This document shows, piece after piece, positions 16,005 through 47,560 of a stretch of DNA of 47,751 bases. The stretch's first letter is position 1. Every line of letters begins with the position of its first letter. The position numbers and the translations under genes were made by a program. Origin of the DNA: Deltaproteobacteria bacterium. GTDB taxonomy: Bacteria; Desulfobacterota_B; Binatia; UBA9968. The notes below the pieces were generated by a model that was not told the origin of the DNA, did no database searches, and worked only from the letters and a program-made list of their open reading frames with translations. Location: positions 1-47,751 of the forward strand of contig VBKY01000093.1 of assembly GCA_005879255.1 (NCBI GenBank). Reading direction: 5' to 3'.

Positions 16005-16307
16005 ATTTCAAATTAGGGCACTACCCGGCACTGAATTGGGTTGACAACACTCATCTATATTGATCAAGAATTGGAGGTGCTGGCGATTGGCTGGCAGGCT
16101 TGCCATTTGGATCCAGCACTGAACAAAGAGACTGAACAAAGAGAGGGATGATCCGACAAACATTTAGTCGAAAACCGGGAACCGTATGGCTGAGATTCAT
16201 GAAAAACCGTCAAGTATGAGCGAACAAGCAATCTCCTTGCAGGCTCGATGCTTGCGCGAGCGCGCCGCGCAACAAGAATCTCGCGCGTAAAATATCTGGA
16301 AGTCGAG
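16005..16307. other. Leader region of the PAS kinase
   Basis: No gene is seen in these 303 nt. A -24/-12-like sequence TGGCGATTGGCTGGCA (16081-16096) has correct GG/GC spacing with one mismatch in the -12 box and would read toward the kinase gene. A sigma-70-type promoter could not be identified with confidence. Confidence 0.3.
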
Positions 16308-19300
16308 ATGGAGCAGACCTCCGACGACGACACCAAGCGCCTTCAAGACTGCATCAATGATCTGATGAGCGTTCAGGCGCTTCCCGCCGTTTGGAGCGGC
16401 CAGGAGCCGTCCCAGATTGTCGCCACTCTGCTCGATGTCTTGGTCTGCGTGCTGCGCCTCGACTTCGCCTACGCCCGGCTAAGCGCCGCAATTGACGGCT
16501 CGCCAATCGAACTGGTTCGTTTGCCTCAGGGCCGAACTCCAGAAGGTCGGCCGGAGCAAGTGAATCGCGTGCTCGAAGGTTGGTTCACAGCCGATCGACC
16601 CGACGCGCCATTTGTCGCGCCGAATCCATTCGGAGATGGAACGGTTTCAGTGGCGCCCTTTCGTCTACGCCTCCAGGATGAAATCGGCATATTAGTGGCG
16701 GCAACTACGCGAAACGATTTTCCGACTGCCACCGAGCTGATTCTGCTCCGAGTGGCGGTCAACCAGGCCGTGATTGGATTACAAGAGGCTCGCCGGCTGG
16801 CAGAGCAAAAGCGGACTGCTGATGAGCTCGAACGACGAGTCGCGGAGCGGACCGAGCACCTTAGCGCTGTCAACGAGGAGCTCAGAAGAGAAATTAATCG
16901 GCGTAAATGGGCGCGCGATGCTCTACAACAAAACCAGCAGCGGCTCCGGGCCATTTTGGACAATAGTTCTGTCCTAATGTTCATGAAAGACATCAACGGG
17001 CATTATTTGGATTGTAATTCTTCCTTTGAAAACCTCTGTGGCTTGAGTCGAGGTCAAATCATCGGCAAAACCGACAGGGAACTTTTCGCTGCAGAGCAAG
17101 CGGCTCAATATGAATCCAACGATCGCGAGATACTCAAGACCGGAACGCCGCTGGAGTTTGAGGGAACGGCGCTTCGCCCGGATGGATTACACACCAGCAT
17201 CGTGTCGAAGTTCCCGTTGCGCGACGGCGAAGATCGCATTTACGCCATCGTTGGCATTATTACCGACATTACGGAGCGCAAGCGGATGGAGCAGACGCTA
17301 CAGGAGAATCAGCAGCGCTTGCGCGTTGCGCTGGAATCCTCCCCCGTTGCGTTCACGATTCTGCGTGCCGCGCGTGATGATCGGTCGCACATCATCGATT
17401 TCCAGTGGTTGTATTTGAATCCAGTCGCGTCGCGGATCCTCGGGCGCGCGCCCGAGGAACTCATCGGGCGTCGGGTGCGCGAGGTGTTGCCGAACGGCTG
17501 GGAACCACCCGGGCTCTTTGAGTGCTTCGTGCAAGTAGTCAATACAGGTGAGCCTCAAGAAATTGAGGTTGCATCCGGACATAACGGCATCAACGGTTGG
17601 TTTCATAATATTGCCGCGAAACTGGGTGATGGCGTCGCCGTGTGGTTTACGGACGTCACCGAGCGCAAGCGGGCGGAGGAGGAGCTCCGGCGCAGTGAGG
17701 CCTTCCTGGCGGAGGGACAAAGAATCAGCCAAACGGGCAGTTGGGCAGTTAAACTTCCCTCCGAAGACGTCTTCTGGTCACACGAAATGTTTCGCATCTA
17801 CGGCCTCGATCCTGCGACGACGAAGCTTTCTCAAAAGATGGCTTTTCAACTGATTTATCCCGAAGATCGGTTGTTTGTGAAGCAGGCGTTCGAGCGGGCA
17901 CTTCGCGACAAAAGCGATTTTGCGGTTGAGCATCGTGCTATTCTTGCCGACGGGTCAATTAAACATCTCCACGCCTTGGGCCATGCCGTGTGCGATGCGT
18001 CTGACAATCTCACCGAGTTCGTCGGCACAGTGGTCGACATCACGGAGCGCAAGCGGGCAGAGCAGGCGCTCAGACAGTCGAGCAGACGGATCGAGAACAT
18101 CCTCGAGAGCATCACCGACGAGTTCAACGCATTCGACCGCGAGTGGCGCTTCACTTACGTCAACGAGCCGGCGTTGAAGTCTATCCGAAGAGCAAAGGGT
18201 GAAGCGCTAACGCGCGAAAAGATTCTGGGGAAGAACGTGTGGGAGGTGTTCCCCGAGCACGTGGGTTCCGTGTTCTACCAGAAGTACCACGAAGCCATGC
18301 GCGAGCAGAAGACCGTCTACTTCGAAGCGCTCTCCCCGGTGACTGGCAGATGGGTCGAAGTGAATGCCTACCTTTCTGAGGAGGGTTTGTCTGTCTACTA
18401 CCGAGACATCACCGACCGCAAGCAGGCAGAAGAGCAACGCGCCTACCACGCCCACCTGCTGGAAAACGTGCACGATGCGGTCATCGCTACAGATGAGCGG
18501 TTCGTTCTGACAGCCTGGAATAAAGGCGCCGAGCAGATGTACGGCTGGAGGGCGGATGAGGTGTTGGGGCGAAGTGTTTTGGAAGTTGTTCCTTGGGATG
18601 GTAGCGCTGAGGAACGTGCCAAGGCCGACCGTGAGCTGGCCGAGACGGGTCGGCGGCGCGCCGAAATCATCACGTACCGTAAGGACGGCACGCCGGTCTA
18701 CGCCGAAGGCAGGAGCGTCGCCTTGCGAGACGGGCAGGGCCGAATCACGGGCTACCTGGGCATTAACCGGGACATCACCGAGCGCAAGCGGGCGGAGAAG
18801 GAGCGCGCGCAGTTGTTGCGTCGGCTCATGGCCGCGCAGGAGGATGAGCGTCGGCGCATCGCGCGTGAGATGCACGATCAGTTTGGGCAGGCGGTCAGCG
18901 CGCTCACCTTAAAACTCGCGGCGCTTAAAGGCGCACACGGCGGGCAAACTGAGCTTGGCGAGCAATTCCTTGCCTTAGAAGCGATTGTGAAACAACTCGA
19001 CGCTGATGTTGATTTCCTCATCTGGGAAATGCGGCCGACCGCACTGGATGATCTCGGCCTCGTGGTCGCCCTCTCTAATTACGTCGAGAATTGGTCGAAG
19101 CATTTCGGGGTCCATGCCGAAGTGCACGCGAGCGGGATGGAGAAGGACCGTCTAACCAGCGAAGTGGAGACGGTGCTTTATCGTGTAACGCAGGAAGCCC
19201 TGACCAACATCGCCAAACATGCCAGGGCCGGAAATGTGGACATCCTCCTCGAACGCCGCTCGGATCACGTCTCGCTCATCATCGAAGACGACGGCATCGG

Positions 19301-19502
19301 TTTCGACGCCGAGAAAGCATTCGCTACAGTTCCTACGGGGTTGGGTTTGATCGGCATGCGCGAGCGCGCTTCACTGGTTGGCGGAACGCTGGAGATCGAA
19401 TCGCATCCGGGCAATGGCGCCACCATCGTTGTACGCATCCGCGCGCCTCTGGGTCCGAAGCGAGAGGAGCAAAATGAAAAAATTGAGTATTCTCTTAGCT
19501 GA
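16308..19502 (+). CDS. GAF/multi-PAS sensor histidine kinase (NarL-type, HisKA_3)
   Basis: This soluble kinase of 1064 aa has an N-terminal GAF-like domain (RLQDCINDLMSVQALPA) shared with the activator at 23915, a short coiled coil, then five PAS domains (AILDNSSVLMFMKDINGHYL; ALESSPVAFTILRAARDD; FLAEGQRISQTGSWAVKLP; ESITDEFNAFDREWRFTYV; LENVHDAVIATDERFVLTAW), most ending in a TDITERKRAE-type linker. The dimerisation/phospho-acceptor domain is HisKA_3 (ERRRIAREMHDQFGQAVSAL), followed by HATPase_c (LTNIAKHA; IEDDGIGF; GLGLIGMRERA). It has no transmembrane segment, so it probably senses cytoplasmic redox, gas or metabolite cues. It overlaps the downstream regulator by 29 nt. Confidence 0.93.
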   Translation: MEQTSDDDTKRLQDCINDLMSVQALPAVWSGQEPSQIVATLLDVLVCVLRLDFAYARLSAAIDGSPIELVRLPQGRTPEGRPEQVNRVLEGWFTADRPDAPFVAPNPFGDGTVSVAPFRLRLQDEIGILVAATTRNDFPTATELILLRVAVNQAVIGLQEARRLAEQKRTADELERRVAERTEHLSAVNEELRREINRRKWARDALQQNQQRLRAILDNSSVLMFMKDINGHYLDCNSSFENLCGLSRGQIIGKTDRELFAAEQAAQYESNDREILKTGTPLEFEGTALRPDGLHTSIVSKFPLRDGEDRIYAIVGIITDITERKRMEQTLQENQQRLRVALESSPVAFTILRAARDDRSHIIDFQWLYLNPVASRILGRAPEELIGRRVREVLPNGWEPPGLFECFVQVVNTGEPQEIEVASGHNGINGWFHNIAAKLGDGVAVWFTDVTERKRAEEELRRSEAFLAEGQRISQTGSWAVKLPSEDVFWSHEMFRIYGLDPATTKLSQKMAFQLIYPEDRLFVKQAFERALRDKSDFAVEHRAILADGSIKHLHALGHAVCDASDNLTEFVGTVVDITERKRAEQALRQSSRRIENILESITDEFNAFDREWRFTYVNEPALKSIRRAKGEALTREKILGKNVWEVFPEHVGSVFYQKYHEAMREQKTVYFEALSPVTGRWVEVNAYLSEEGLSVYYRDITDRKQAEEQRAYHAHLLENVHDAVIATDERFVLTAWNKGAEQMYGWRADEVLGRSVLEVVPWDGSAEERAKADRELAETGRRRAEIITYRKDGTPVYAEGRSVALRDGQGRITGYLGINRDITERKRAEKERAQLLRRLMAAQEDERRRIAREMHDQFGQAVSALTLKLAALKGAHGGQTELGEQFLALEAIVKQLDADVDFLIWEMRPTALDDLGLVVALSNYVENWSKHFGVHAEVHASGMEKDRLTSEVETVLYRVTQEALTNIAKHARAGNVDILLERRSDHVSLIIEDDGIGFDAEKAFATVPTGLGLIGMRERASLVGGTLEIESHPGNGATIVVRIRAPLGPKREEQNEKIEYSLS

Positions 19503-20127: not shown

Positions 20128-20283
20128 TTTTTCAACAAACTTTACCCTCTTCCACCCTCAGGAAAAACCCACGCAGGTTCCCGCTTTCCCTAACTGCGAA
20201 AATCTCTCCACGGAGATAAAATGCTGGAGCGTTAGTTTACGAGCGTCATAGCGCGTGAAGCTGGGAACTTGCGTGTGCGACCG

Positions 20284-20299
20284 TGGACGCCCTTTTGCA
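20284..20299 (+). promoter_or_regulatory. Sigma-54 promoter for the MEDS-PAS kinase
   Basis: TGGACGCCCTTTTGCA has GG/GC at 10-nt spacing and a perfect TTGCA -12 box. It overlaps the first codons of the long open frame (20283), which argues that translation starts later, at 20553. The 20128-20552 region otherwise holds no gene; a degenerate TTACGAGCGTCATA lies about 47 nt upstream. Confidence 0.6.
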
Positions 20300-20552
20300 C
20301 GAAGTTTGCGCGCATGAAGCCTGGAGCTTGGGGGCGATTAGCATTTCCACACGGACATCATTAAGTCTTAACCGACCGGTCAGCAATGGAGGAATCATTA
20401 TTGGGAAGCGGCATTCGAGAGCAGGAAATCATCGGCAATCAAACCGCCTCGGCATGGCTGCCGGGGGGGAGGAGATTAAATTTTCGTGCCCGGATGCGGC
20501 ACGCGGTAGTCCAGCGCAACCATTTTACCAACCAGAGAAGATAGTGACCGCG

Positions 20553-23165
20553 ATGGCAACGGAGCTGCGTAAACCTGGAATTAGCCTTCTCGGCGACCTG
20601 CCCTGGGGCACACACTTTTGCCATTTCTACGAGACCAAAGAGGATCTGCTTCATGCGGTGGTGCCCTATTTCAAAGCGGGTTTGGAATCTAACGAGTGCT
20701 GCGTTTGGGTAGTTTCTGAACCCGTGTCGGAGGAAGAAGCGAGGGATGCGTTGAGGGCGGTTGTTCCCGATCTCGCGCGCTACGAGGGCAACGGCAGTGT
20801 CGAAATTCTTATGGGACGGGACTGGTATTTTACAGAGGGCGTTTTTGATCGACAGAGAGTTTCAAGCGGTTGGATCGAAAAGCTCAATCGAGCGCTTGCT
20901 CGAGGATATGACGGGATGAGGGTGTCGGGAGACGCATTCTGGTTTGGCAGCACATACTGGAAAGATTTCTGCGAGTACGAGAAGGACCTGAACGAGTTTG
21001 TCAAAGACAAGCCCATGACTGTCTTGTGTACCTACTCGCTTCCGTCGAGCAACGCCGGTGAACTCCTTGATGTATCCCCTATGCATCACTTTGCTATAGC
21101 AACGCGAAACGGAAACTCGGCGGTTATCGAACCTCCCGGTGCTACGCCCGAGCGTAAGCGCGTTGAAGGGTTGCTCCGAGAGGGTAATGAGAGAGTCGAG
21201 ATGATCCTCGACAGCATAACGGATAACTTCTTTGGTTTAAGCAAGGACTGGCGATTTACGTATTTCAACAAGCATGCTGCAGAGCAAATGAGAGTCCTCG
21301 GCAAAGACCCCGCACGACTTATCGGGAAAGTGCTGTGGGAGGAGTTTCCGTACGTGCCCAACGAGGTCACGCTCCGTCGCGTCATGTCCGAGCGAGTAGC
21401 GATCACCGACGAGATCTATTATTATCCGCCGTTGGGCGAGTGGGTGGAGAATCACATGTACCCGAGCCACGACGGCGGACTGGTGACATTTCAGAAATAC
21501 GTCACCGAGCGCAAGCGCGCGGAAGAAGGATTGCGGCGCAGCGAGGCCTTCCTGGCGGAGGGACAAAGAATTAGCCACACGGGCAGTTGGTCAGTGAAAC
21601 TCCCGTCCGAAGAGGTCTTCTGGTCACAGGAGGCGTTTCGCGTCTACGGCCTCGATCCTGGCACGACGAAGCTTTCTCGACAGCTAGCTTTTCAACTGAT
21701 TCACCCCGAAGATCGGCCGTTTGTGCAGGAGGCGTTCGAGCGGGCACTTCGCGACAAAAGCGATTATTCGGTTGAGCATCGTGCCATCCTTGCCGACGGT
21801 TCGATTAAATATTTCCACGCTCTGGGCCACCCGGTGTTGAACGAGTTCGGCGACCTCGTTGAATACATCGGTACGGTCATGGACATCACCGAGCGCAAGC
21901 GCAGTGAGCAACGTCTGGCCGTGCAGTACGCCGTCACGCGCATCTTGGCTGAATCCAACACCCTCGCCGCGGCGACCCCGGACCTGCTGCGAGCTATCGG
22001 TGAAAACATGCAATTAGATTGGGGCGCACTTTGGATCGTCGATCGCCAAGCAGCCATGATCGGTTGCCAGAATATCTGGCACGCGCCGAATCTAGAGGCT
22101 GCGGAGTTCAACGCGATCAGCCGCAAGACCAGATTCACGTTCGGCCAAGGCTTTCCGGGGCAGGTCTGGCAAAGATCCGAAAGTATCTGGTCCGAATCTA
22201 TCTGGACTGATGACGCCATGAAGAACCCCAATTACGTGCGCGCGCCCATCGCAGCCAGCATGGGCTTGCGTACAGCTATTGGGTTTCCCCTTGTGGTCGC
22301 CGGCGAACCCTTCGGTGTTATTGAATTCTTCGGTCGTGCAGTTGCGCGGCCCGACAAGGAACAAGTTGCAACGCTGTCGGCCATTCGGAGCCAAATCAGT
22401 CAGTTCGTTGAGCGCAGGGGCGCAGAAGAAGGACTGCATGCTGCACGGGCGGAGCTGGCGCGCATCTCGCGGGTCATGACAATGGGGCAACTGACGGCCT
22501 CGATCGCCCATGAAGTGAGCCAGCCCCTCGCCGCCATCGCTATTAACGCCAATGCCGGCCTTGGCTGGTTGGCAGGGACAACCCCAAACCTCGATAACGC
22601 GCGGGGAGCCTTACACCGTATTATCAGAGACGGAAATCGGGCGGGCGATGTCATCACGCGGATTCGGATGCTGTTGAGGGAGAACGACGCAGCCAAAGAG
22701 CGGCTGGACATCAACGAGGTCATTCAAGAAGTTGTTGCCCTTGTGCAGGATGAAATACGAAGACATGGGGCGGCGTTCCGAATGGAACTGGCCGACAATC
22801 TCCCGTCCGTGCTGGGAGATCGCGTGCAGTTGCAGCAGGTGGTGCTCAACCTGATCATGAACGGAATTGAGACCATGAGCGAGATTACAGACCGACCGCG
22901 GGAGTTGATCCTCAAAACGCAGCAGGATGAAGTCGATAAGGTGTGTGTCACGGTTCAAGACTCGGGTATAGGCATTGACCCGCAAAGTCTCGCACGGATT
23001 TTTGAAGCCTTTTACACAACCAAGCCGCAGGGGATGGGGATAGGATTGTCGATCAGTCGCTCCATTATTGAGTCGCACGGCGGACGACTCTGGGCAGCGC
23101 CGAATGATGGCCCGGGCGCTACGTTCCAATTTACCTTGCCCATTTCTAAACCCGGCGCGTCCTGA
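20553..23165 (+). CDS. MEDS-PAS-PAS-GAF sensor histidine kinase
   Basis: The N-terminal MEDS domain (DcmR-type sensory domain) runs from about 10 to 190: [31 protein letters not shown], and the conserved cysteine in MTVLCTYSLPSS. Then come a PAS domain (ILDSITDNFFGLSKDWRFTY), a second PAS domain about 80% identical by eye to one in the upstream kinase (FLAEGQRISHTGSWSVKLP), a GAF domain (about 545-700), and HisKA with phospho-His in SIAHEVSQPLAAIAINA followed by HATPase (VVLNLIMNGIETM; DSGIGIDP; GMGIGLSISRSI). The kinase core resembles FixL/DctB types. It is soluble. A sigma-54 promoter lies upstream. The MEDS start at 20553 is chosen over the open frame from 20283. Confidence 0.88.
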   Translation: MATELRKPGISLLGDLPWGTHFCHFYETKEDLLHAVVPYFKAGLESNECCVWVVSEPVSEEEARDALRAVVPDLARYEGNGSVEILMGRDWYFTEGVFDRQRVSSGWIEKLNRALARGYDGMRVSGDAFWFGSTYWKDFCEYEKDLNEFVKDKPMTVLCTYSLPSSNAGELLDVSPMHHFAIATRNGNSAVIEPPGATPERKRVEGLLREGNERVEMILDSITDNFFGLSKDWRFTYFNKHAAEQMRVLGKDPARLIGKVLWEEFPYVPNEVTLRRVMSERVAITDEIYYYPPLGEWVENHMYPSHDGGLVTFQKYVTERKRAEEGLRRSEAFLAEGQRISHTGSWSVKLPSEEVFWSQEAFRVYGLDPGTTKLSRQLAFQLIHPEDRPFVQEAFERALRDKSDYSVEHRAILADGSIKYFHALGHPVLNEFGDLVEYIGTVMDITERKRSEQRLAVQYAVTRILAESNTLAAATPDLLRAIGENMQLDWGALWIVDRQAAMIGCQNIWHAPNLEAAEFNAISRKTRFTFGQGFPGQVWQRSESIWSESIWTDDAMKNPNYVRAPIAASMGLRTAIGFPLVVAGEPFGVIEFFGRAVARPDKEQVATLSAIRSQISQFVERRGAEEGLHAARAELARISRVMTMGQLTASIAHEVSQPLAAIAINANAGLGWLAGTTPNLDNARGALHRIIRDGNRAGDVITRIRMLLRENDAAKERLDINEVIQEVVALVQDEIRRHGAAFRMELADNLPSVLGDRVQLQQVVLNLIMNGIETMSEITDRPRELILKTQQDEVDKVCVTVQDSGIGIDPQSLARIFEAFYTTKPQGMGIGLSISRSIIESHGGRLWAAPNDGPGATFQFTLPISKPGAS

Positions 23166-23227: not shown

Positions 23228-23896
23228 ATGGCCGAGTCTCAAGGAGCGAGTGAGAGCGAACCGCCGATTCGGTTCGCCGGTTCAGTCCTCGGCACGCAGC
23301 GTCATGTCTGCGCGTTCTTTCATAGCCCGGACGAGGAGTATCGGATGCTGCTTCCGTTCATCAAAGAAGGATTCGAGCGCGGCGAGAAGGCCTTCCATAT
23401 CGTCGATCCCAGGCTGCGTGATGAACACTTAAGGCGGTTGGAGACCGCCGGCATCGATGTAGCGGCAGCGGAAAAGAGCGGCCAATTCGAGCTGCGCAAT
23501 TGGGCTGAAGCGTATCTGCGCGACGGCCACTTCGATCAGGATAGGATGCTTGCTCTGATCCAAGAAGTACTGGAGGGAGGAAGACAGCAAGGCTTTCTGC
23601 TGACTCGTCTAATTGCCCATATGGAATGGGCCCTGGAAGACCGGCCGGGGGTTAATGACCTGGTGGAGTACGAGACCAGACTGAACTATATCTTGCCCCG
23701 GTATAAAGACCCCGTCATATGAACGTACGATCTCGCCAAGTTTGGCGCGGATATCGTTGTTGATATTATGCGGACTCATCCGATGATCATTATCGGAGGT
23801 ATTCTTCAGGAGAACCCGTTTTTCGTTCCGCCGGATGAGTTCTTGCGGGAGCTGCGTGAACGCGCTGCCATGCACAAAGGATCCCCCACAAGTTAG
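23228..23896 (+). CDS. Stand-alone MEDS-domain sensory protein; predicted selenoprotein
   Basis: This single-domain protein resembles the DcmR/MEDS sensory fold: HVCAFFHSPDEEYRMLLPFI, FERGEKAFHIVDP, then LLTRLIAHMEWALEDRPGV. After RYKDPVI the frame meets TGA at 23720-23722 and continues for 57 further residues (TYDLAKFGADIVVDIMRTHP ... NPFFVPPDEF) to TAG at 23894. Paralogues in this window read DPVICAYD, MMCTYPL and VLCTYSL here, so TGA replaces a conserved Cys (predicted Sec165, 222 aa). A hairpin follows 16 nt after the TGA. The extended frame ends immediately before the next gene. The ligand is unknown; DcmR itself responds to dichloromethane. Confidence 0.8.
23730..23752 (+). other. Candidate bacterial SECIS hairpin (MEDS gene)
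   Basis: CGCCA-AGUU-UGGCG (23734-23747) forms a perfect 5-bp stem with the loop starting 16 nt after the UGA and G in the second loop position. Outside it AUC/GAU pairs resume after an asymmetric bulge with a U (23733), similar to the bulged U of the E. coli fdhF element. Confidence 0.65.
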
Positions 23897-23914
23897 TTGA
23901 CGACAAAAGTGGAG

Positions 23915-25555
23915 ATGGAACATACAGCCGATGAGATCGGGCGGCTTCAAGGCTGCATCAATAATCTAATCAGCGTGCTAGCCCTTCCCGCCATCTGGAG
24001 TGGACAGGAACCTGCATACATTCTGGGTACTTTGCTCGACGCTCTACTGGGTATGCTGCGCCTGGACTTTATTTATGCACAGCTGACCGATTCGATTCCC
24101 GGCTCACCCATTGAAATGGTCCGTTTGGCTCAGCGCCGAACTTCGGCTGCTGAGCCTCAGCAAATGGGCCAAGCGCTCAACCGCTGGTTGACAGGCGACC
24201 CGCCACCGGCGCGTTTGGTGGTGCCGAATCCCATCGGAAGAGGAGAGGTCTCTATCGCGCCGTTGCGGCTCGGGCTTCTGGACGAAGTCGGACTATTAGT
24301 CTCAGGCTCCGAGCGGGCGGATTTCCCGACCGAGATCGAAATGCTCCTCCTGCGAGTAGCAGCGAACCAGGCGACGATTGGGTTGCAAGAGGCTCGAGAC
24401 ATCACCGAACGCAAACGAGCCGCGGATATACTCGAGCAGCGCGTCGATGAACGGACCAGACAACTCACAGCTGTCAACGAAGAGCTAAGACAGGCAAGAG
24501 TTACATTGGAAAAAGCCTTCGAAGAGATCAAAGCACTGAAAGACCGTCTCTACCATGAAAATGTGGCGCTGAGAGAAGAAATCGACCGGACATGGATGTT
24601 CGAGGAAATTGTCGGCTCATCGCGGGCGATGCGGGCCGTGCTTTCACGCGTCGCCAAAGTTGCTCCCACGGATTCCACGGTTCTCATCACGGGGGAAACG
24701 GGTACTGGAAAGGAACTTATTGCTCGTGCTATCCACAATCGCTCAAACCGCGCCGGTCAGGCTTTCGTGGCCTTTAATTGCGCCGGCATCCCACCCTCCT
24801 TGATCGCTGCGGAATTATTCGGTCATGAGAAAGGAGCCTTCACCGGAGCACAGCAGCGACGCCTCGGGCGCTTTGAGCTGGGTGAGGGCGGGACAATTTT
24901 CCTGGACGAAGTTGGCGAGCTGCCCGCGGAAACGCAGATTGCCTTGTTGCGAGTAATCCAGGAGCGGGAGTTTGAACGAGTCGGCGGGAGTCAGCCGATT
25001 TCAGCCAATGTTAGAATCATTGCCGCCACCAACCGCAACTTGCAGGACGCCATTGGGGCGGGCGCCTTTCGGCTGGACTTATTTTATCGACTGAACGTAT
25101 TCCCGATCGAGGTACCTCCTTTGCGTGAGCGGAGAGAGGACATTCCCCTGTTGCTCGAGTATTTCGTTAAGCGTTATGCCGATAAGGCAGGCAAGAGTTT
25201 ACGCAGCGTCGAAAAGAAAACGATAGAACTATTCAAGTCTTATCACTGGCCAGGCAACATTCGAGAGCTGCAAAATGTGATCGAGCGATCTGTCATTGTC
25301 TGCGAGAGTGAAATCTTTTCGGTTGACGAGAACTGGCTATCTAAGGCATCGCTTGAGCCGCACCGACGATCAGGTACTCTTTCCGAAATGCTGCTCGAAC
25401 AGGAAAAGAGAATCATCGAGTCTGCACTGGCTGAAAGCAAGGGCAGAATCGCAGGTCGTTTCGGAGCAGCCGCCAATCTGGGAATACCCTCCTCCACACT
25501 CGAATCAAAGATTAGGACGCTTAAAATTAAGAAAACCCGTTTCATGTCGGACTAG
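23915..25555 (+). CDS. GAF-domain sigma-54-dependent activator
   Basis: Residues 1-165 form a GAF-like sensory domain nearly matching the start of the kinase at 16308 (GRLQGCINNLISVLALPAIW). A coiled coil (about 170-225) with VDERTRQLTAVNEELRQAR follows, then the AAA+ sigma54-interaction domain with [14 protein letters not shown] and [12 protein letters not shown], and a C-terminal HTH ([20 protein letters not shown]). There is no receiver domain, so it is controlled by ligand or by partner proteins. The frame opens with TTG at 23897, directly after the MEDS stop; the ATG at 23915 matches the homologous start of the 16308 kinase. It is probably cotranscribed with the Sec-containing MEDS gene. 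Confidence 0.92.
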   Translation: MEHTADEIGRLQGCINNLISVLALPAIWSGQEPAYILGTLLDALLGMLRLDFIYAQLTDSIPGSPIEMVRLAQRRTSAAEPQQMGQALNRWLTGDPPPARLVVPNPIGRGEVSIAPLRLGLLDEVGLLVSGSERADFPTEIEMLLLRVAANQATIGLQEARDITERKRAADILEQRVDERTRQLTAVNEELRQARVTLEKAFEEIKALKDRLYHENVALREEIDRTWMFEEIVGSSRAMRAVLSRVAKVAPTDSTVLITGETGTGKELIARAIHNRSNRAGQAFVAFNCAGIPPSLIAAELFGHEKGAFTGAQQRRLGRFELGEGGTIFLDEVGELPAETQIALLRVIQEREFERVGGSQPISANVRIIAATNRNLQDAIGAGAFRLDLFYRLNVFPIEVPPLRERREDIPLLLEYFVKRYADKAGKSLRSVEKKTIELFKSYHWPGNIRELQNVIERSVIVCESEIFSVDENWLSKASLEPHRRSGTLSEMLLEQEKRIIESALAESKGRIAGRFGAAANLGIPSSTLESKIRTLKIKKTRFMSD

Positions 25556-26749: not shown

Positions 26750-27468
26750 ATGGCTGCAAGCGATCGACCCATTTTCTTCGCTGGCTCAATGCTCGGCGCC
26801 CACCGGCATGTGTGCGCCTTCTTCAGTTCAGCGAAGGAGGAGTACGAAACGCTGTTGCCGTTCGTTCGCGACGGCCTCAAGCGCGGCGAGCGCGCCTACC
26901 ATGTATGCCACTCCAATGACCGAGATGAACATCTCGAGCAATTGCGAAACGCGGACGTCGATGTGACCGAAGCGCAGCGAAAGCGCCAGCTCGAGGTGGC
27001 GACCGTCGAGGAAACATACCTGCGTGATGGCTGCTTCGACAAGGAGGAAATGCTCACGCTGACCCAGCAGAGGCTCAAGAGCGGGGCAGGGCTTGGCTTC
27101 CCCCGCTGACGCGTATGATTGCGCACGCAGAGAGTGTTCTGGAAGACTGGACCCGCGTCAATGATTGGATCGAGTACGAGGCGCGGCTGAATGAGATTCT
27201 GCCGCACTATGATGATCCGGTGATTTGCGCGTACGACGCCAACCTGCTGAGCGCCGCTATCGCGGTCGATATTCTGCGCACCCATCCCGTTGCGATCATC
27301 GGCGGCGTACTGCGCGAAAACCCGTTCTTCGTGCGGCCAGCAGAGTTTCTGCTTGAGCGGCTCGGGCGGAATGTGACGTTGCCCAAGGCGTTCTTCGTTA
27401 CGCCGGAACGCTTCCTCAAGGAGCTGCGTCAACGCCGCGCCGCGCCGAAGGGAAGCAAGGATCAGTAA
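26750..27468 (+). pseudogene. MEDS-domain sensory protein with frameshift
   Basis: The first frame (26750-27109) encodes FFAGSMLGAHRHVCAFFSSA and ends at TGA after GLGFPR; the rest of the domain (TRMIAHAESVLEDWTRVNDW ... DPVICAYD ... RTHPVAIIGG) continues in another frame to 27468. The break is at the C run 27100-27104, where the homologous gene at 23228 reads on without interruption. One base lost or two gained would restore a protein of about 239 aa. The cause may be a sequencing or assembly error in a homopolymer, a true mutation, or a phase-variable tract. It is a close paralogue of the 23228 gene, but keeps the normal Cys. Confidence 0.8.
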
Positions 27469-27560: not shown

Positions 27561-27972
27561 TGAGCGGCCCCGAGCCCGCGATCGATTGATGGTTGTCCCA
27601 CTTTCGGCACAGTGGCTGTGGGCGCATATGACCGATCTAAGTTTACTGGTCTTTTTTTTCGACGGAAGGGAGGACGTCGTCGAACTTGCGGGTCTTAGGC
27701 AATACCTGGTACCGGCGCCACTTTGGTCAATGTGGCGATGAATTTTTGATAAACAGCCAGAGCCGGTATTGAGTTTTTGATCTTTAACTAGTTAGTTGTA
27801 GTCGCTATTTCCTTCATAACGTAGGACTAACAGACCCTGCATAAGCATCTCGGCGAACGTCAGGTACAACGATGGCCCAAAATTCATTCGTCGATACATC
27901 GATTTCTGGCTACGATGAGCGAAATCATTAATTCAAATGAAATTAACTGCAGTCTGGAGAGGGGTGCGGCTG

Positions 27973-30507
27973 ATGGCAGAGTTGAGGCACACCCGAACTA
28001 GCGTTGTTGACGATATGCCGTCGGGGACGCACTTTTGCCACTTTTACGAAACCGAAGAGGACCTGCTTGACACGGTCATCCCGTATTTCAAAGTCGGGTT
28101 GGAGAACAAAGAATTCTGCCTCTGGGTAATCTCGGAGCCGCTGACGGAGGAAGACGCATGGAGCGCGTTGAGGGAACGCATTCCCGAGTTTGACCGGCAC
28201 GTGTCCGGACGCAACTTAGAGATTTTCTCGGGCCGGCATTGGTATTTAGAAGGAGGCCTTTTTGATCCAAAGAGAGTCGCAACCGGCTGGAATGAGAAAC
28301 TCAATCAGGCGCTCGCCAGAGGCTATAGCGGGATGAGAGTGAGCGGCGACGCGGGCGGGTTCGAGCAGAAAAACTGGCTACATCTCTGTGACTATGAAAG
28401 ACAGCTCAACGAGTCTGTGCCGAATCAACTGATGACGATGATGTGCACTTATCCGCTGGCGGCGACTGGAGCCGTTGAGCTTCTCGACGTGGCGGGGACC
28501 CACCAGTTCGCGGTCGCAAAGCGAAAAGGCGGATGGGAGGTATTTGAAATGCCTCAGATCAGAGAGCCGCGGGATGAGATCAACACACTGAATCAAGAGC
28601 TCGAAAGAAAGCTCCTCGAGCGGGGGAAACAACTCACAGCCGTCATCGGAGATCTGTCGGATGAAGTTATCGACCGCGAGCGCGTTGAAGAAGCGCTTGA
28701 CGAAAACCAGCAGCAGCTTCGAGCTATTTTGGACCATAGTCCCTCGATGATTTTCTTGAAAGAGCCGAATGGGCGTTACCTCGATTGTAATCTTCCTTTT
28801 GAGCAGCTCTGCGGCCGAAGTCGAGATGAGATTATCGGCAAAACCGACCGCGAACTCTTTTCGGCTCAACAAGCGGATCAGTTGGACGCCGACGATCGCA
28901 AGGTGCTCGCCGCAGGAATGCCGCAGGAGTTTGAGGAGACCGTGCTTCGCCCCGATGGGCGGCGCACGTGTATCGTCTCGAAGTTTCCCCTGCGAGACGT
29001 AAACGACCGCATTTACGCCATCGGCGGAATTGTTACCGACATCACCGAGCGCAAGCAGGCGGAGGAGGTGCTGCGGGAAAGCGAGGAGCGGTTCCGTCTG
29101 ATGGTCGAAGGCGTGAAGGACTACGCGATTTTCATGCTCGATCCTGAAGGCAGAGTCACCAGTTGGAATCTCGGCGCCGAGCGCTTCAAAGGTTATCGTG
29201 AAGACGAGATATTGGGCGAGCATTTCTCGCGATTCTTTCTCGCTGAGGAGGTTGCCAGAGGCAAGCCTGAAGAAGAACTAAGGTTGGCAGGGGCGGCAGG
29301 CAGGGTTGAAGATGAAGGCTGGCGGGTGCGTAAAGACGGCACGCGTTTTTGGGCGAATGTCGTGATCACGGCTCTTCGGAATCGGGGAAATGGCAACCTC
29401 ATCGGCTTCTGCAAGCTGACGCGTGACGCCACCCAGCAGCATGAGGCGCAAGCCGCGCTGGCACGCGCTTTCGAAGAGATCAATGCCCTGAAAGACCGGC
29501 TCCATGAAGAAAATGTCGTTCTGCGGGAAGAGATCGACCAAAGGTCGATGTTCGAAGAAATTATCGGCTCATCGCGGCCTGTGAAGTCGGTGCTGTCTCG
29601 CGTCGCTAAAGTCGCGCCCATGGATTGCACCGTGCTCATTACCGGGGAAACTGGCACGGGAAAGGAACTTGTCGCTCGCGCCATTCACAAGCGCTCAAAC
29701 CGTGCGGATCGAGCGTTTGTCGGCTTCAATTGCGCCGGAATCCCGCCGTCGCTGATTGCTTCGGAGCTTTTTGGCCATGAAAAAGGCGCCTTCACGGGGG
29801 CGCAGCAGCGCCGCCTCGGTCGCTTCGAGCTCGCCGAGGGCGGCACGATTTTTCTCGACGAAGTCGGCGAGCTGCCCGCGGAAACTCAGATCGCCCTGTT
29901 GCGAGTGATTCAGGAACGGGAGTTTGAACGAGTCGGCGGCAGCCAGCCCATTGCCACTAATGTCCGCGTCATCGCCGCCACCAATCGGGATTTGCAGGAG
30001 GCCGTCGCCGCCGGCAATTTCCGGCTCGACCTGTTCTATCGTCTGAACGTGTTCCCGATCGAAGTGCCGCCGCTGCGCGAGCGGCGGGAGGACATCTCGA
30101 TGTTGCTCGAATACTTCATCAAACGTTACGCTGACAAAGCGGGTAAGAAGATCCGCAGCATCGACAAACGGACCGTCGAGTTGTTCAAATCTTATCATTG
30201 GCCTGGCAACATTCGCGAGCTGCAAAATGTGATCGAGAGATCGGTGATTGTTTGCGAGAGTGAAAGTTTTTCAGTTGACCCGAGCTGGTTATCGACGGCG
30301 CCGGTTTCGAGCAGTTCAAGCTCGTCGACTTTGGCTGAAAAGTTACATGCGCAAGAAATTAAAATCATTGAGTCCGCGCTTGCCGAGAGCAAGGGCAGAA
30401 TTGCCGGCCGGTTAGGGGCGGCTTTCAAGCTAGGCATCCCGTCGTCGACGCTCGAGTCGAGAATCAAGCTGCTTAAGATCAAGAAGAGTAGATTCAGATC
30501 CGACTGA
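27973..30507 (+). CDS. MEDS-PAS-PAS sigma-54-dependent activator
   Basis: Residues about 10-190 form a MEDS domain ([34 protein letters not shown]; Cys in [11 protein letters not shown]). A coiled coil and two PAS domains follow ([20 protein letters not shown], nearly the same as a PAS in the 16308 kinase; and [19 protein letters not shown]). The AAA+ domain has [14 protein letters not shown] and [12 protein letters not shown], and the HTH is [20 protein letters not shown]. The AAA+ and HTH parts are almost identical to those of the 23915 activator, so both probably bind the same DNA sites. The ATG at 27973, with GGAGAGGGG upstream, is preferred over 27937. This is a direct MEDS-to-transcription link. 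Confidence 0.92.
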
Positions 30508-46269: not shown

Positions 46270-46628
46270 ATGCGCACACCGGTATTTACAGAGCCCGCTA
46301 CCTCGGCGCTCTTGGCGGATATTTACGAGACTCCGTGCGCCGACGCATACGTGATCGAGATCCCGGTCCCCGGACTAAAGCCGGATGAAATTGTCGTTGA
46401 AGCCGACACGTACAGCCTGACTGTCTCCACCGAGCCGGCGCAAACGGAGCCCAAATCTGGCCCCAGCGTGAATTCTCGGTGCGGCCGATGTCGCGGATAT
46501 TCAATTTTCCGGTCGAGATCGACATCGACAACGTGCAGGCGACCTTGGAAAACGGCATCTTGCAGATCCGCGCTCCCAAGGCGGCTGCGGGCAAGGGGAA
46601 ACTCATCCGGGTCCGGCGGGCGGCGTGA
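46270..46628 (+). pseudogene. Hsp20/alpha-crystallin small heat-shock protein with frameshift
   Basis: The N-terminal half (ADIYETPCADAYVIEIPVPG; LKPDEIVVEADTYSLTVSTE) is in one frame and the alpha-crystallin C-terminal part (REFSVRPMSRIFNFPVEIDI; NVQATLENGILQIRAPKAAA; GKGKLIRVRR) in another, ending at TGA 46626-46628. A single-base loss near 46455-46465 explains the switch. The reading frame that continues without shift (to 46689) is Arg/Ser-rich nonsense. The restored stop overlaps the start of prs (GTGA), which supports the correction. It may be an assembly error rather than a mutation. ATG at 46270 has GGAAGAAG upstream; 46252 is the alternative. Confidence 0.82.
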
Positions 46629-47560
46629 AAAATGGATTCACGATCTTCAGCGGCACAGCCAACCCGGCGTTGGCGGCCGCAATTGCTGACGAGCTCGGCG
46701 TCCAGCTTGGTGCCTGCGCCATCGATCGGTTTCCGGACGGCGAGATGGCGGTACAACTGCTGGAGCCGGTGCGCCGTAAAGAGGTCTTTCTCGTACAGTC
46801 GATTTCGCCGCCCGTCAACGACCATCTAGTCGAGCTTTTGGCGCTGGCCGATGCCTGCCGGCGCGCGGCCGCGGCGTGCATTACGGCGATTGTGCCTTAC
46901 TTTGGCTATGCGCGAGCGGATAAGCGCCACGGTCGGCTGGAACCGATCACGGGGCGGATGGTTGCCGATCTTCTTCAGGTAGTTGGTATTGCGCACGTGA
47001 TCACTATGGATCTGCACACGCCGCAAATCGAAGGGTTTTTCTATGTTCCGACGGACAGCCTGACAGCGGTGCCGACACTCTGTCGGGCGCTATGCGATTG
47101 GCTGCCAGCAGACGTGGTAGTTGTGTCGCCCGACGGCGGCCGCGTCGGGATGGCCACTCAGTACGCACAGTGTCTCGGTGCTCCGGTCATCGTGCTGCAC
47201 AAGCGGCGCGAGAGCGGCTCCGAGACCAAGGTGACCCATATCATCGGCGACGTATCGGGCCGAGCATGCTTGCTCGTGGATGACATGATTTCGACCGGCG
47301 GCACAATCGCCGAAAGTATGTCGGCGCTCCTCGCTGCGGGTGCCCGCCCGGAGATCATCGTGGCGGCCACGCATGGACTATTCCTGATGGGCGCGCGCGC
47401 CAGGCTGGAGCATCCCGCGGTGCGCGCCGTGTTTGTCACCGACACGATATCGGTGGCCGAGAAAGACTGGGCGCAGCTGCATGTCGTCTCAATCGCGTCG
47501 CTCATCGGCAGCTCGCTGGCGCAATTGCTGGCCGACGGTTCAAACGGCGATCCGTGCTGA
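46625..47560 (+). CDS. prs: Ribose-phosphate pyrophosphokinase (PRPP synthetase)
   Basis: This 311-residue enzyme makes PRPP from ribose 5-phosphate and ATP. Visible motifs: [20 protein letters not shown] at the N-terminus, [11 protein letters not shown], the flexible-loop region [32 protein letters not shown], and the PRPP-binding loop [20 protein letters not shown]. The GTG start overlaps the Hsp20 stop. Its place next to a phosphoribosyltransferase and stress genes suggests a second, specialised prs copy rather than the housekeeping one, which is inference. Confidence 0.93.

Follow-up and report, generated by a model that had tools for sequence, protein, structure and literature searches.

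The window, by which we mean the whole stretch of 47,751 nucleotides of contig VBKY01000093.1 that was analysed, carries a gene for a MEDS-domain protein (Sec-MEDS) which is very probably best explained as a selenoprotein sensor that serves as the input partner of the adjacent signalling protein and employs its selenol as the trigger. That the gene encodes a selenoprotein appears nearly certain: the UGA at position 23720 would be decoded as selenocysteine (Sec) by means of SelB and tRNA-Sec, with a downstream hairpin acting as the SECIS element, and Sec would replace a Cys that is conserved among MEDS domains. The relevant features of the window are collected in Table 1.

Table 1. Positions of the Sec-MEDS gene, its recoding signals and the surrounding signalling genes in the window.
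Feature	Position	Strand	Basis or remark
PAS histidine kinase	16248..19502	+	Probably starts at ATG 16308 and opens with the same GAF-like module (60% identity)
Upstream Cys-type MEDS-PAS-GAF histidine kinase	20283..23165	+	
Sec-MEDS gene, stand-alone MEDS sensory protein of 222 residues, predicted Sec at 165	23228..23896	+	Open reading frame, PF14417, TGA homologues, selection behind the TGA
In-frame TGA, predicted Sec codon	23720..23722	+	Column is TGC/TGT in 62/82 aligned segments
Putative lower stem extending the hairpin	23727..23757	+	Pairing in 84% of cells; no pair changed on both sides
Apical hairpin of the putative SECIS	23734..23747	+	Stem strands CGCCA and TGGCG around the loop AGTT; no difference between the window and 20 TGA loci
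Following gene, probable partner, with a sigma54-activator AAA+ domain behind a GAF-like N-terminal module	23915..25555	+	
GAF-like module	23915..24514	+	At most 500 nt downstream of MEDS in 72/79 loci
Second stand-alone MEDS gene, Cys form	26750..27468	+	Frameshifted near 27105
Cys-type MEDS-PAS-sigma54 activator	27937..30507	+	

An earlier, sequence-only reading of the window had placed this TGA in frame within a stand-alone MEDS gene, followed by 57 coding residues, and both statements are borne out, as the frame read through from the ATG at 23228 comprises 164 residues, the TGA and 57 further residues up to the TAG at 23894-23896. In a profile search the protein matched PF14417 (MEDS) over residues 25-185 with 150.9 bits (cut-off 29.8), so that the MEDS domain itself crosses the TGA. 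The Cys which had been noted at the TGA column in the other three MEDS stretches of the window is indeed present, one of these comparator genes (26750-27468) being frameshifted. On the other hand, the claim that the frame ends exactly where the next gene begins had to be corrected: alignment of homologues puts the probable start of that gene at the ATG at 23915, 18 nt past the stop, and not at the mechanically assigned TTG at 23897. Elsewhere in the window, a PRPP-synthase-like gene (46625-47560) shares 70% identity with a sequence of the betaproteobacterial bin G041 and 32-45% with its other long matches. At the DNA level, the longer stretches (over 300 bases) that matched among 100 genomes reach only 64-69% identity.

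A scan of genome contigs for MEDS yielded 79 loci with 82 aligned segments that cover codon 165, and this codon is TGA in 20 of them, TGC in 44, TGT in 18 and nothing else, so that homologues with TGA at this column, proposed earlier as something to be listed, do exist. Later searches added four more TGA copies (L155, which is 63-64% identical, L168, L173 and L174), of which L173 is partly broken in appearance. The distance from the TGA to the next stop is 52-59 codons in 19 of the 20 TGA loci, the remaining one (L043) ending with its contig. Among the best 120 full-length database matches, residue 165 is Cys in 117, Trp in two and Tyr in one. When residues 1-164 were used as the query, 119 of the best 120 matches stopped exactly at residue 164, the one other match being a full-length Cys form; judged by where these proteins end, the 119 are probably Sec genes that were cut short, which bears on annotation. 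Two metagenome proteins (P0014 and P0028) have Trp at 165, possibly a TGA that the gene caller translated with code 4.

These data bear directly on the view that the TGA is a nonsense mutation or a sequence error and the gene a pseudogene, which we regard as exceedingly improbable. Decay or sequence error does happen in this region, as demonstrated by the frameshift in the window's second stand-alone MEDS gene, and other MEDS copies look broken (L071, L173, L184), but the same TGA codon occurs in a quarter of the aligned segments (20/82) with no further stop codon in the aligned part of those 20 copies, and the common end point of 119 database matches also speaks against a chance lesion. In addition, codons 177-212, which lie past the hairpin, have a pN/pS of 0.16 compared to 0.26 before the TGA (20 sequences, L043 left out), both ratios being rough since pS is near saturation; by these estimates purifying selection goes on behind the TGA. 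Pseudogene formation and sequence error were rejected because the TGA recurs among homologues. The frameshift at 27105 adjoins a run of C and may reflect either decay or a sequence error.

The hairpin had been described as CGCCA-AGTT-TGGCG, with its loop 16 nt past the TGA and G as the second loop base, and it is found as such at 23734-23747. Its 14-nt element, CGCCAAGTTTGGCG, is identical in the window and in the 20 TGA loci (21/21), and codons 169-173 show zero synonymous variability across the 21 TGA sequences, where codons 10-164 average 0.48; the same codons reach 0.44-0.57 in 61 Cys sequences. The suggestion that conservation of the hairpin would be visible in synonymous variation and covariation was thus upheld in its first part, the element being invariant without any synonymous change in its codons; as to the second, none of the 12 hairpin pairs changed on both sides among the 21 TGA sequences, in which the apical stem is free of variation. 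In the three divergent TGA copies (L155, L168 and L173) the element reads GGCCCG-GTT-CGGTGCC instead; it forms a hairpin at an unchanged location from different base pairs and keeps the GUU in its loop. A crude hairpin scan passed 21/21 TGA sequences but also 19/61 Cys sequences, so that the presence of a hairpin is by itself a weak discriminator. At one locus of the Cys form (L071, 5473 and downstream), a frameshifted gene still carries a nearly unchanged relic of the Sec hairpin, which looks, as far as its sequence can tell, like the fossil of a Sec-to-Cys conversion. Viral contigs matching the hairpin pattern were sought and none was found.

A further line of evidence comes from the genomes themselves. 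The 20 TGA loci represent 18 genomes, in which tRNA-Sec was searched for by ARAGORN on the stretches around each genome's best Rfam hit. The search for selA, selB, selC and selD that the sequence-only reading had put forward was positive for these TGA-bearing relatives: selA and selD exceed the cut-off in 18/18 genomes, 17 of them with an in-frame TGA in selD itself, selB does so in 17/18, G012 having only a short piece, and tRNA-Sec(tca) is present in 17/18, the best Rfam hit of G003 being a tRNA-Ser. The lack of tRNA-Sec in G003 and of a full selB in G012 is perhaps due to incomplete bins. Among genomes of Cys loci, selA exceeds the cut-off in 27/49. Setting TGA genomes against Cys-only genomes, selA is found in 19/19 versus 24/46 (p = 9e-5), where the 46 are the 49 minus G001, G009 and G041, which also hold a TGA copy, and G637 stands outside the selA count.

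It is in this regard that readthrough with another amino acid, through a near-cognate tRNA or a Cys- or Trp-inserting suppressor, has to be weighed, and we consider it very improbable. The base after the TGA is A in 20/21 sequences, a context that would suit leaky termination as known from E. coli, and the UGA aligns with Cys, as this explanation would have it; against it stand the third-position conservation of the hairpin, which is confined to TGA forms, and the higher frequency of selA in genomes with the TGA. Both point to Sec, whose insertion we infer with good support from the comparative evidence as a whole.

The 5' context of the codon is also peculiar. The Ile codon before the TGA is ATA in 16/17 TGA forms versus 3/48 Cys forms, and elsewhere in the TGA genes ATA accounts for 8/233 Ile codons; in the window this ATA lies at 23717-23719. 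As to descent, at least seven Sec/Cys changes are required by a tree with 106 rows, in which half of the forks are weak and P0028 is mislabelled as Cys, and its starred branches taken alone are compatible with one origin.

All 20 TGA loci belong to records whose titles say MAG and give the source as Acidobacteria (including Terriglobia and Thermoanaerobaculum), Rokuibacteriota, Betaproteobacteria, Deltaproteobacteria and Chloroflexi, so the bins may carry wrong labels. The family is sparse in broad samples; seed genomes included, matches were obtained in 5/297, 1/200, 6/95 and 8/395 genomes (cut-off 1e-50 for the 297- and 200-genome sets and 1e-40 for the 95- and 395-genome sets), and TGA copies are rare, occurring in 2/297, 1/200, 3/95 and 1/395 of the same genomes, again with seeds included. 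Among plasmid records, 33 match the MEDS protein, all below 60% identity, and codon 165 encodes Cys in all five that were looked at.

What the residue might do was approached through a model of the MEDS protein built from a 55-row alignment (A1; pLDDT 90.2), according to which the MEDS fold is KaiC/FlaH-like and of the RecA type. A search of solved structures by sequence gave six matches (E 0.07-0.8), the best of them a KaiC. The RecA fold is shared with KaiC/FlaH in the predicted model, yet Sec-MEDS has only about 12% identity to these proteins and is without the Walker A motif GxxxxGK[ST], which is also absent from all rows of A1 and of an alignment of nine diverse MEDS (A3). Residue 165 is Cys in 54/55 rows of A1, with one Trp, and in 9/9 sequences of A3. 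The predicted model has Sec165 as the third residue of strand 163-168 and Cys28 as the third of strand 26-31. In the RecA-type strand order the two strands are neighbours, which would place Cys28 and Sec165 on adjacent strands. Cys28 is present in 55/55 rows of A1 and in 8/9 diverse MEDS of A3; the Ala that a haloarchaeal MEDS has in its place weakens its candidacy as an obligatory partner.

The link between the MEDS sensor and the adjacent regulator, which had been proposed for the window, turned out to be stronger than first claimed, as a GAF-like module follows MEDS in 72/79 loci and is fused to it in one genome. This module of about 190 residues lies on the same strand within 500 nt downstream in 19/20 TGA loci, L043 again ending with its contig, and in 53/59 Cys loci. 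GAF_2 was matched weakly by 7/11 module sequences (best E 1.4e-4) and the window's own module matched no Pfam family; its model (pLDDT 88.4) has many GAF domains among its best folds (ranks 3, 6, 7, 8 and on). The module of the window is 61-69% identical to those of L001-L008 and L010, and the three divergent TGA copies (L155, L168 and L173) have no recognisable GAF-like module in the available flank. In 18 TGA loci that were scanned, the gene after MEDS encodes a histidine-kinase domain in 16 and none in L005, where the gene is cut by the contig end, and in L012. The fusion (L174, 283-2148, minus strand, in the Rokubacterial bin G014) joins Sec-MEDS, module, HisKA_3 and HATPase in one frame of 621 residues across the TGA and is a predicted Sec-containing kinase. 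Within the window, the histidine kinase at 16248-19502 likewise opens with a GAF-like module, and the list of open reading frames has no MEDS gene directly before it.

Neighbourhood and fusion make the GAF-like module a likely partner of MEDS, and we think it probable that the full-length Sec-MEDS protein is an input partner acting on this N-terminal module of its neighbour, the physical partnership being deduced from gene arrangement. The module would then feed a histidine kinase in the majority of relatives with the TGA and, in the window, a sigma54 activator. In such an arrangement the UGA might also be a regulated stop, with the balance between the truncated (164-residue) and full-length products informing the partner of selenium supply or of the activity of SelB. 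The truncated product would be without the end of the MEDS domain, and UGA-Sec decoding is known to compete with termination in a manner that depends on selenium supply, as described in a passage of PMC4513850. In L174, however, truncation would lose the whole kinase, and we hold a regulated stop of this kind to be unlikely.

Returning to the Sec-containing full-length protein, the selenol is tentatively viewed, with slightly less confidence than doubt, as a trigger of fast nucleophilic or redox action, which an electrophile or oxidant would modify, the change being passed to the partner. This reading is put forward because of selenol chemistry and because MEDS relatives are tied to dichloromethane and alkene/epoxide regulation; electrophilic cues would suit a nucleophilic selenol. 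Both the ligand and the direction of the response are matters that we infer. Alternatively, Sec or Cys may form a metal or non-covalent ligand site, tuned to a small hydrocarbon derivative or a soft metal, with no covalent or redox switch. MEDS has been proposed as a sensor of simple hydrocarbon derivatives (in the part of PMC11507031 that deals with it), and H26 and C165 are invariant in the nine diverse MEDS, both of which would fit such a site, but most uncharacterised prokaryotic selenoproteins are likely to have a redox function according to the pertinent section of PMC13188914, and we consider a purely ligand-binding role doubtful. The more specific proposition that Sec165 of a KaiC-fold MEDS acts as the chemical trigger of a GAF-like kinase or sigma54 activator that is its neighbour or, in one Rokubacterial bin, its fusion partner, and that UGA decoding ties the sensor to selenium supply, we hold to be evenly balanced between true and false.

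The statement that no MEDS selenoprotein has been described agrees with the literature searched. Table 1 of PMC13188914 (2026), which inventories 119 selenoprotein families, has no MEDS entry and only one entry named regulatory, FmdB, and the text portion of that source that was searched gave no match for MEDS, DcmR, sensor, histidine kinase or signal transduction. Likewise, no DcmR or MEDS selenoprotein was found in the searchable literature, a scope in which most subscription papers do not fall; a term search of the accessible text of PMC12013277, PMC9312934 and PMC5029168 returned neither MEDS nor DcmR, and the passages inspected in PMC2702500 and PMC5109826 name no Sec-containing kinase or sensor. 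The bacterial selenoproteins described in the PMC13188914 inventory are mainly enzymes and redox, transport or metal-binding proteins. If our explanation is true, Sec would be used for signalling, within a widespread sensory domain, and Sec-MEDS would constitute a selenoprotein family devoted to bacterial signalling, of a kind absent from that inventory as tabulated. Aerobic bacteria seldom keep selenoproteins, as a passage of the same source indicates, and several record titles of MEDS loci name soil or soil depths, so that the oxygen tolerance of the system is a fair question.

Comparison with known systems places Sec-MEDS among several relatives. DcmR of Methylobacterium, a one-component DNA-binding regulator, gave the MEDS domain its name. 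It is described as a repressor in the dichloromethane cluster in a passage of PMC12750041. The only NCBIfam match of Sec-MEDS was to the RsbA-type anti-sigma factors (NF041045), which was limited to the MEDS part; it scored 51.9 bits where the cut-off is 210, and nothing else of the RsbA profile is present. A closer likeness is offered by EtnR2 (MYCCH_RS29050) of Mycolicibacterium chubuense NBB4, a small stand-alone MEDS protein that is 34% identical to Sec-MEDS but has Cys, not Sec, at position 165. Its gene lies 10 nt before that of EtnR1 (MYCCH_RS29055), and the order of a MEDS gene followed by a regulator gene is that of the window; the two loci are named as a MEDS and an HTH protein, respectively, in a passage of PMC8784404. 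The outputs differ, as that of EtnR1 is a DNA-binding HTH, whereas the partner in the window is a sigma54 activator and those of its relatives are mostly kinases. The EtnR2/EtnR1 pair detects epoxide, as stated in the relevant part of PMC11507031, and this ligand work concerns the actinobacterial pair only; Nocardioides JS614 has a similar pair that is unnamed in its record. Residues 105-169 of EtnR1 (L185, 3602-5344) matched the module profile weakly (22.8 bits, with an E-value that holds for three sequences only), and this N-terminal match suggests that EtnR2/EtnR1 and the MEDS/GAF pairs may form one wide family. The exchange of Sec and Cys in turn singles out the important residue of MEDS proteins, among them EtnR2. 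In conclusion, Sec-MEDS shares with the known bacterial selenoproteins a UGA aligned with Cys, a SECIS-like hairpin directly downstream and the presence of sel genes in the genomes of its relatives.
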